Below, piece after piece: positions 25,600-29,487 of a stretch of DNA of 64,000 nt. The DNA is taken from assembly GCA_030447245.1 (NCBI GenBank), contig JAUJPG010000005.1, positions 90,049 to 154,048 on the forward strand. Reading direction: 5' to 3'. The notes under the pieces were generated by a model. That model was not told the DNA's origin. It made no database searches and worked only from the letters and a program-made list of their open reading frames with translations. Each line of letters begins with the position of its first letter. Positions within the stretch are counted from its first letter, which is position 1. Source of the DNA: Chloroflexota bacterium. GTDB lineage: Bacteria > Chloroflexota > UBA6077 > JACCZL01. Both the position numbers and the translations under genes were made by a program.

Positions 25600-26280
25600 A
25601 TGGGCGGTGAGACCCGGTTGCTACGGCGCGCGGCAAGGGCCAAGATTGAGCTGAGCAAGCGCTTCTCGCGGCACGGGATTGATGCCTTCCTGCACCAGGA
25701 GCTGCGCGGCATCCGCGGGACGATCCTGGATCTCGGGGCCGGGTTGCGCCCCTTCGCGGGGTTGCTGCCGGGCGGGACGATCGCCCTGGACCACCGCCCG
25801 CGGCCGGACATCGACCTGATCGGCGACGCCCACCGCCTGCCGTTCGGCGACGAGACGGTTGACGCAATCGTCTGTACCGAGGTGTTCGAGCACCTGCGTG
25901 ACCCGCCAGCTGCCGCGGCCGAGATTATTCGTGTGCTCAAGCCCGGCGCGCGGCTGGCGCTGACGACCCGTTTTTGCTTCCCGCTGCACGACCGTCCCGG
26001 CGACTTCTGGCGCTTCACGCCCTACACCCTGCGGCATCTGTTTGCGCCCCTTGCGCCCACGGTCATCTCCCAGCACAGCGCCTACCAGACCTTGATCGTC
26101 CTGCTGATCCGCCTGGTGATGGAGCCCACCCGCCTGAACCGTGTCGTGTCGCCACCAGTCCTGGTGCTCTGCACGGCCCTCTGGGGACTCGAGCCGCTAA
26201 TCGGCCGACTCTTGCCAAGTGACGCCCTGACTAGTGGCTACCTGGTGGCCGGCCGGAAGCCGGCGCGACCATCGCGTTGA
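25600..26280 (+). CDS. class I SAM-dependent methyltransferase
   Basis: 226 aa. Motif I is LDLGAGLRPFAG, followed by ALDHRPRPDIDL and DAIVCTEVFEHLRDP, typical of the Methyltransf_11 type. The C-terminal part has two hydrophobic stretches (LIVLLIRLVM, VLVLCTALWGL) and may associate with membrane. No Shine-Dalgarno; probably near-leaderless. Substrate unknown; the second methyltransferase 1 kb away suggests a glycan or lipid-modifying neighbourhood. Confidence 0.85.
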   Translation: MGGETRLLRRAARAKIELSKRFSRHGIDAFLHQELRGIRGTILDLGAGLRPFAGLLPGGTIALDHRPRPDIDLIGDAHRLPFGDETVDAIVCTEVFEHLRDPPAAAAEIIRVLKPGARLALTTRFCFPLHDRPGDFWRFTPYTLRHLFAPLAPTVISQHSAYQTLIVLLIRLVMEPTRLNRVVSPPVLVLCTALWGLEPLIGRLLPSDALTSGYLVAGRKPARPSR

Positions 26281-26282
26281 CG

Positions 26283-26298
26283 GGCCCGGAATCGGGCC
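26283..26298. terminator. hairpin after the methyltransferase gene
   Basis: GGCCCG and CGGGCC form a 6-bp stem with a GAAT loop, 3 bp past the stop. No T-tract. A second GAAT-loop hairpin lies at 27127. Confidence 0.4.
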
Positions 26299-26321
26299 GC
26301 TAGAGTCGAGGCGGAGGGCCC

Positions 26322-27110
26322 GTGGCAACAACCGATCGGGACAGCTCGCGCGGACGGCCCGGTGCGACCCCGCTCTTGTCGAACTGGGTGCGTGCCTTTC
26401 CGCCGTCAATTCTGCTGATCGCTGCATGGCTGCTGCTTGGCCCCTGGACAGCCGCCGCGCAGCCGGACCCTGGCGCGCCACGGCCGGCGCCGCCGGAGGC
26501 GCCATACGTTGGGCCGGCCGAGTCGAACGATCAGCCGCCGCCCACGAGCGAGGTTCGGCCCTCCGCGCCGGCCATCCAGCCCTCGCCGTCGGCGGTCGCC
26601 AAGCCCTCGCCATCAGCAGTCGCCAAGCCCTCGCCGTCGGCGGTCGCGAAGCCGGGCGGCGCGGCCGCCCCGTCCGAACCGGGCTGGGCCTGGATCAATC
26701 GGTACGTGAGCCTGACGGCGCTCCTTGCTGCACTGGGGGCCGGGCTTCTCCTCCTCGCTGGGATTGCGTGGTACCGGTCGAACCGGGCGGAGGCGGCGCC
26801 CGGGCCGGAGCACCGGGCCCAGATGCGGCGCTTCGTCGAGGAGGACTTCGCCCGGTTTGTCGCCGCTGGCCTGCCGCTCGAGGTAGACGAGGCCCCGCTT
26901 CTCTCTCGAGACGATGGGTGGCGGACGCTCTTCACACACCACGTCAAGCTGCATAACGAGCTGTACCGTTTCAGCACGCGGACCGCGCTGGCCATCTACA
27001 CTGCCCACGTCGACGATGCGGTTCGTCGTGCCCTAACCGAGCGGCGCGCGCTGTTAGCGAACGATCCCGATGGAAAACAGGCCCGGGTTGCAACTGGGCC
27101 ACCTGTGTAG
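26322..27110 (+). CDS. membrane protein of unknown function with PSPSAVAK repeats
   Basis: 262 aa. An N-terminal signal (ILLIAAWLLLGPWTAAAQ), a Pro/Ser/Ala-rich segment with three PSPSAVAK repeats, one transmembrane helix (LTALLAALGAGLLLLAGIAW) near residue 140, and a soluble C-terminal domain rich in Glu/Arg. GTG start with GGAGG close upstream. I do not recognise the family; topology suggests an outside linker and a cytoplasmic tail. Confidence 0.65.
   Translation: MATTDRDSSRGRPGATPLLSNWVRAFPPSILLIAAWLLLGPWTAAAQPDPGAPRPAPPEAPYVGPAESNDQPPPTSEVRPSAPAIQPSPSAVAKPSPSAVAKPSPSAVAKPGGAAAPSEPGWAWINRYVSLTALLAALGAGLLLLAGIAWYRSNRAEAAPGPEHRAQMRRFVEEDFARFVAAGLPLEVDEAPLLSRDDGWRTLFTHHVKLHNELYRFSTRTALAIYTAHVDDAVRRALTERRALLANDPDGKQARVATGPPV
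26580..26651 (+). repeat. 24-bp tandem repeat x3 (codes PSPSAVAK)
   Basis: Three consecutive 24-bp copies starting CCCTCGCC; copies differ only at a few third positions. The frame is kept, so the repeat is a coding linker. Confidence 0.9.
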
Positions 27111-27126
27111 GGAGCCCACCCGCGCC

Positions 27127-27144
27127 GCTCGCCGAATGGCGAGC
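27127..27144. terminator. hairpin between convergent genes
   Basis: GCTCGCC and GGCGAGC form a 7-bp perfect stem with a GAAT loop, centred between two convergent stops; it could end transcription from both sides. Confidence 0.5.
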
Positions 27145-27180
27145 TGAGGGACGACGCCCGGGGCCTGGGCGGCGCCGGGG

Positions 27181-27921
27181 CTAGCTCGCTCCGGACGAGT
27201 CGGCGAACCTCGGGGCAAAGGCGGCTACCCGCTTTTCCGGGTAGCGGAACGAGGGATCCCGACGAGCCACAGCCAATGCCGAGATTCCGAGCTCGCGGAA
27301 CAGTGGCTCGCCCCAGCCAAGCAACGGATGGCCACGGGCGCCGACGAAGACCAGATCGTCGACGACAAAGCCCGCCCGCTCCAAAGTGAATCGCAGCGTT
27401 CGTGGTGTGAACGCGTTGATGTGCTCGCTCGCCTGGTACCCGTTGTGGCCGATCGCCCGCTTGATGACTCGCTCGACGATCGGCAGCGGCGGGATGGTCG
27501 GGACGTGGATGAAGAGGTGCCCATGCGCCTCCAACTGGGCGTGCAGGCGCAGCAGAAATAAGTGTGGCGCGACCAGGTGCTCGAGCAGGTTGGAGCAGAA
27601 GACGGCGTCAAACCGCCGTTCGAGGTCAGGCAATCCATCCTCGACGTTGGCGAGGTGCGCATCGAGACCAAGCGCCCGGCAGAACGTCACGTTGCCCTCT
27701 ACCGCGTCTAGTCCCGCGCTACGCGCTCCAAAATGGACCAGGTGCTGGCCATGGCCAGCACCGATGTCGAGGACGGCGAGGCGATCGGCGCGATGCGTCT
27801 CGCAGACGAAGCGAACCGCGCGAGATGGGACGAAGAAGCCTCGCAGGATGCGCTCGGTATCCTCAGGCGGAAGCGGTGACCGAGCACGGACCAGCGCGGC
27901 GACATCCTCGGGCGAGCGCAG
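27181..27921 (-). CDS. class I SAM-dependent methyltransferase, probable CTG start
   Basis: 246 aa in the extended frame. The track starts at 27690, after motif I; yet the same open frame upstream encodes LAVLDIGAGHGQHLVHFG, a perfect motif I, and SPEDVAALVRARSPLPPEDTERIL before it. There is no ATG, GTG or TTG between the upstream stop (27966) and 27690. A CTG at 27921 has GGAGG exactly six bases upstream. Further motifs: AVFCSNLLEHLVAPH and LFIHVPT. Probably methylates a small molecule or glycan intermediate. Confidence 0.8.
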   Translation of the reverse strand: MRSPEDVAALVRARSPLPPEDTERILRGFFVPSRAVRFVCETHRADRLAVLDIGAGHGQHLVHFGARSAGLDAVEGNVTFCRALGLDAHLANVEDGLPDLERRFDAVFCSNLLEHLVAPHLFLLRLHAQLEAHGHLFIHVPTIPPLPIVERVIKRAIGHNGYQASEHINAFTPRTLRFTLERAGFVVDDLVFVGARGHPLLGWGEPLFRELGISALAVARRDPSFRYPEKRVAAFAPRFADSSGAS

Positions 27922-28079
27922 GGCGGGCCTCCGCGAAGGGTACTCTCGACCGGAGTTTGAGTGTCAGCAGACACCGCCAGACCGGGCATGCCCCGTTCGG
28001 AGCGGTCCGCCGGACATTTATGATACCCCGGAGTCCGCCGTTGCCGGACTGTTCCGCCCGACCTCCTAATCCTACGGTC

Positions 28080-29487
28080 TCAGGTATCCGAGACGAGCGG
28101 CGGACGACAGCAATGCCAGTCCACGGCGCACTGGAACGCATGGCCGGCGGCGAGCACGGCCGCCTCGCCCAGCCGCGGCCCGACGATCTGGATGCCAACG
28201 GGAAGCGCACGGTCGTCAAAGCCGCACGGGATCGACATCGCCGGGACTCCGGGCAGGTTGAAGACCCCGCGGAAGTTGTCCCGCGCGAGCGGCTCCAGGA
28301 GCGCGCCATTCGACCCCATCCTCGGTGCCGTTCCGGATAGGGTCGGGGTGATCAGGATGTCCACGTCGCTGAACACCTCTGCCAGGGACGCGCCGAACCC
28401 CTTGCAAGTTTCGCGGGCCGTGATGTACTCGACCGCCGGGATGTCCAGGGTCTCTACGAGGTTCTTCCGAACTTCTGGAGTGAGCTCCTCCGGCCGCTCA
28501 GCCAGCAGCCCGCCGTACTCGGCGCCGGTCAGCGCCTTGTGGACCGTGAGCGCAGCGGCGGCAATGGGTGGCATAGGTGGGAGCGTCACGTCGCGTACCT
28601 CCCACCCGAGGCCGCGCCACACGTCAAGGGCCGCCTCGGCCACGCGCCCGAGATCGGGCGGCAGATCCTCCCAGAAGTAGGCCCGGGGGACCCCAACGCT
28701 GAGCGGGCGGCCGCTCTTGGTGATGGGACTGGACCAGCCATCGTCAGTCGGCGCATCGAGCGACTCGGGATCGCGCGGATCGTGCCCGGCGAGCGCGTCG
28801 AGCAGGATTGCGCAATCGAGGACGGAGCGTGCCATCGGGCCGACGTGGTCCAGACCGGGTGAGAGCGGAGGACCCCGTGCAAGCTGATGCGACCGTACGT
28901 CGGCTTCAGGCCAGTGATGCCGCAAGCCGCGGCCGGATTCCGAATCGAGCCACCGCTGTCAGTGCCGACAGCACCGTAGGCTAGCCCCGCCGCCAGAACG
29001 ATGCGCCGAGCCGGGCTGGAGATCCGGGGTGGTGATTCGTGTTCCAGGGATTACGCGGGATCGCGTACGGGTGATCTCGGAAGCTCTCGGCCCAGCACAG
29101 CTCCGGCAGGTTCGTCTTCCCCAGCAGGACCGCACCCGCCTGACGCAGTCGCGCGACCGCCGTCGCATCCTCCTCGGGCACGAAGGTGGCGAATGCCCGG
29201 CTGCCGAAGGTCGCCGGCACGCCCTTGCTCCAGAGCTGGTCCTTGATCGCGACGGGCACGCCGTGGAGCGGCCCGCGGTACTCGCCAGCCAGGATCTCTT
29301 GCTCGGCGCGATCGGCCTCCTCGAGGGCCGAGTCGGGTGTGCACGTGATGTAAGCGCCGAGCGTCGGCTCCAGGCGCTCGGTCCGCTCGATCATCGTCCG
29401 GGTAACCTCCACTGGCGAGAGGTCCCGAGCGCGCAGATGCTTTCCGAGCTCGTCCAGCGAGAGGTACGCTAGCTGCGGTTCACCCAC
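28080..29487 (-). pseudogene. amidase (amidase-signature family), frameshifted
   Basis: Three open segments in different frames together make one amidase of about 470 residues. Frame one (29487 to about 29030) has the catalytic Lys in VPVAIKDQLW; frame two (about 29010-28880) has [17 protein letters not shown] with the Ser nucleophile; frame three (to 28080) has [14 protein letters not shown] and the C-terminal half. The GGSSGGS region with the cis-Ser is garbled by several single-base losses, and a C is missing near 28868. Either a decaying gene or homopolymer sequence errors. Substrate unknown. Confidence 0.8.

Follow-up and report, generated by a model that had tools for sequence, protein, structure and literature searches.

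Where does translation of a methyltransferase gene begin when its reading frame offers no canonical start codon ahead of the cofactor-binding motif? This question is raised by a reverse-strand frame, open from stop to stop over 260 codons (positions 27181-27963), in the window, i.e., the whole stretch of 64,000 nucleotides of Chloroflexota DNA analysed here. The first-pass annotation had pointed out that the SAM motif of the enzyme lies upstream of the called start in the same frame, that no ATG, GTG or TTG is found back to the preceding stop, and that a CTG at 27921 follows GGAGG by six bases. All of this was borne out: the motif LDIGAGHGQH is present at 27771-27742, before GTG 27690; none of the 3 canonical codons occurs in the methyltransferase frame between TGA 27966-27964 and GTG 27690; and the GGAGG is separated from the CTG by CCCGCC. 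Our analysis points, with moderate confidence, to the CTG as a functional translation start directed by the GGAGG. The features of the locus are as follows:

27966-27964, reverse strand: upstream in-frame stop TGA
27932-27928, reverse strand: proposed Shine-Dalgarno (SD) sequence GGAGG, six bases before the CTG
27921-27919, reverse strand: proposed start codon CTG, aligned with the ATG of relative G001
27181..27921, reverse strand: methyltransferase coding sequence read from the CTG, 246 codons plus stop (Methyltransf_23 profile, E 1.9e-15)
27771-27742, reverse strand: SAM-binding motif I LDIGAGHGQH, upstream of GTG 27690
27690-27688, reverse strand: first canonical start, GTG, 91 codons past TGA 27966-27964
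27708..27989, reverse strand: overlapping frame from ATG 27989, which one frameshift would join to the gene; its first 20 codons are not coding-like

Judged from its profile match, the gene product is a class I SAM-dependent methyltransferase. It resembles the Pfam family Methyltransf_23 (PF13489) in scoring well above the curated cut-off (57.4 bits against 27 bits; E 1.9e-15) and in the presence of motif I, but differs in carrying no NCBIfam equivalog assignment, as none of the equivalogs reached its cut-off against this protein, and hence no substrate is assigned. Structure prediction from 3 sequences (the present protein and its orthologues from G001 and G004) was of poor quality, with a mean pLDDT of 56.

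By default, a gene caller would begin the protein at GTG 27690, which is the first canonical start and has GAGG upstream. The protein read from this codon, however, comprises 169 amino acids and is devoid of motif I, and the reading would sacrifice, along with the motif, 77 conserved codons under purifying selection. In the comparison with G001, dN/dS is 0.27 for codons 2-77 (76 codons, from the CTG to GTG 27690) and 0.11 for the rest of the gene, indicating that the segment preceding the GTG evolved as translated sequence. We consider initiation at GTG 27690 highly improbable.

The position of the start was addressed by comparison with 2 orthologues, one from G001 (same family, 74% identity) and the other from G004 (same order, 48%), neither belonging to the same genus. 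No further close orthologues turned up in a search that covered 400 genomes from the phylum, genomes from its order and class, contigs from 84,980 species and viral contigs. The ATG of G001 matches the CTG codon exactly, the alignment being gap-free from the first codon, and LVRARSPLPP is conserved thereafter, as the first 14 codons illustrate:

Here: CTG CGC TCG CCC GAG GAT GTC GCC GCG CTG GTC CGT GCT CGG
G001: ATG AAA TCG TCC AGC GAG GTC GCG CGG CTC GTT CGC GCC CGG

From the start codon onward, 62 of 90 bases are identical between the 2 genomes, compared with 9 of 42 before it, which is about the level of chance. The frame of G001 remains open upstream of its ATG; the drop in similarity at this position supports the ATG as the likely start of that gene. 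In G004, the frame opens just four codons before a TTG, the sole canonical start there, which lies 27 residues before a conserved FF, compared with 28 from the CTG to the FF here, i.e., within one residue. The alignment with homologues that the first-pass annotation had proposed for locating the starts thus places both of them at or next to the CTG, and an N-terminus extending past the stop at 27966, which it had named as the sign of a frameshift, was sought in the 2 relatives and not found. Consistently, when a codon model was trained on 775 genes from approximately 1 Mb of the genome, it set the onset of coding usage in the methyltransferase frame a single codon ahead of the CTG; its precision is lower in G001 and G004, with the onset 5-6 codons past the start. 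On these comparisons, the start very likely lies at codon 27921.

Alternatively, the true start could be ATG 27989, its frame being joined to the gene by a one-base indel between this ATG and the CTG, whether genuine or introduced by the assembly. Near a CCC run, a shift of one base would indeed connect the 2 frames, and about ten coding frame breaks are present in 1 Mb of the assembly. However, the first 20 codons of the ATG 27989 frame receive a score of −2.0, compared with a median of +4.4 for true genes and −4.3 for wrong frames; this is close to the 5th percentile of the true genes and within the wrong-frame range, and no coding signal was found by the codon model upstream of the CTG in another frame. 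Furthermore, the relatives start at the CTG codon and none starts upstream, and both the aligned CTG and the SD would have to be mere coincidences. This alternative is very unlikely.

The GGAGG carries no weight by itself and has to be judged by its context, since GGAGG-N6-CTG occurs in the window at the level of chance (3 cases against 3.86 expected from shuffles). In approximately 1 Mb of the genome, 0.65% of CTG triplets have a GGAGG ending 5-9 bases upstream; the motif is informative only at CTG 27921, because this codon aligns with the ATG of a relative. SD-led initiation does operate in this genome, as SD words of 5 bases are present ahead of 25 of the 84 clear starts examined, compared with 3 of the 84 internal controls. 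SD-like words stand before the start in all 3 genes, GGAGG here and AAGG in both G001 and G004, and the initiation region is not more folded than usual (−16.2 kcal/mol against a median of −18.8). Scans for sigma-70 promoters and terminators gave no match. A TATCAT is present upstream both here and in G001, but at different distances. In G001 (L002, reverse strand), a six-codon frame, ATGAAGGCTCTGTCTGCATGA, is located just upstream, about eight bases after the TATCAT, with its end overlapping the methyltransferase ATG; it is possible that this frame encodes a leaderless leader peptide.

In a scan of approximately 1.0 Mb, a sampled fifth of the genome, with the codon model, 27 of 775 genes displayed coding signal ahead of their first canonical start. 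By inspection, these included about ten frame breaks, with upstream coding in another frame, some spurious antisense frames and one in-frame stop. The methyltransferase is the only one among the approximately 775 genes with an SD-preceded CTG at the coding onset and no upstream coding in another frame. Habitual use of CTG starts was considered and rejected for the sampled fifth of the genome, given that no second good case was found among the 775 genes and the other 26 were for the most part assigned to frame breaks, to spurious antisense frames or to internal stops. A gene at L107 16698-17207 (reverse strand), similar to a 2Fe-2S subunit and by eye CoxS-like, contains an in-frame TAA near the N-terminus (RDYERTG*VWTSLADFL).

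The surroundings of the gene are conserved on one side. Downstream lie a convergent gene (26322-27110, forward strand) and a second methyltransferase gene (25600-26280, forward strand), in the same order as in G001; within 25600-27921, a gene for a proline-rich putative membrane protein thus stands between 2 methyltransferase genes, an order which G001 keeps. The upstream side differs, with a broken amidase gene on the same strand here and, in G001, no amidase counterpart and an apparent divergent gene instead. The amidase (PF01425; 28080-29487, reverse strand) is divided among three reading frames, the breaks lying near 28860 and 28990, whereas its relatives are mostly single frames of about 500 codons; it is either a pseudogene or an assembly error. 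The differing upstream contents, together with the border of similarity at the start codon, suggest that the upstream region was exchanged in one of the lineages, and the start codon may have changed along with this exchange.

At the CTG, the GGAGG six bases upstream would guide the usual initiator tRNA to CUG 27921. As known for such starts, initiation by fMet-tRNA at this CUG would involve a mispair at the first base and be of low efficiency, and the protein would begin with methionine. The codon probably was an ATG, GTG or TTG in the ancestor that was replaced by CTG in this lineage. Such events are rare: CUG accounts for 0.024% of bacterial starts and its output is 0.86% of that of AUG (PMC11497404); a mycobacterial selection gave no enrichment of CTG, which is a poor start in mycobacteria (PMC4633059); and a comparison of close genomes found an ancestral AUG turned into CUG at only 2 of 61,358 starts (PMC5622118). 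Owing to this low prior, 2 further explanations each retain a small but real share of the probability.

According to the first, the CTG is a base error of the assembly or reflects a strain mixture, the true codon being ATG, GTG or TTG and the gene an ordinary one. A prior of ~2 in 10,000 for a real CUG start (PMC11497404) speaks for this, as does the assembly, which looks metagenomic (131 contigs, 90% complete, 4% contaminated, no 16S gene detected); yet substitution errors are rare in well-covered assemblies, and one would have to strike exactly this base. The second, recent loss of the start by mutation to CTG, would leave a decaying gene with trace translation at most. A CUG output below 1% of that of AUG (PMC11497404) and the broken neighbouring amidase, a possible sign of local decay (or of assembly error), are consistent with this, but the methyltransferase has no internal stop or frameshift, its motif I is intact, its dN/dS against G001 is well under 1, a good SD has been retained and this lineage has not clearly evolved faster (18 unique changes, compared with 12). 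We regard both as unlikely, and infer that CTG is the true base and the start used in the cell. That the CTG is, in addition, a fixed and selected low-level start keeping the enzyme scarce, with the strong SD compensating and CTG starts otherwise unseen in the lineage, seems quite doubtful.

Gene finders limited to ATG, GTG and TTG would call this enzyme too short and without its SAM-binding motif, whereas a comparative rule combining the frame, the aligned start of an orthologue, the SD and the coding onset offers a cheap way to such cases. Initiation at CUG in bacteria is rare but already known, and the methyltransferase probably represents a further case. It differs from the known CUG-initiated bacterial genes in having been recognised by sequence comparison alone, and resembles them in that a CTG takes the position of the canonical start and is preceded by an SD at normal spacing.
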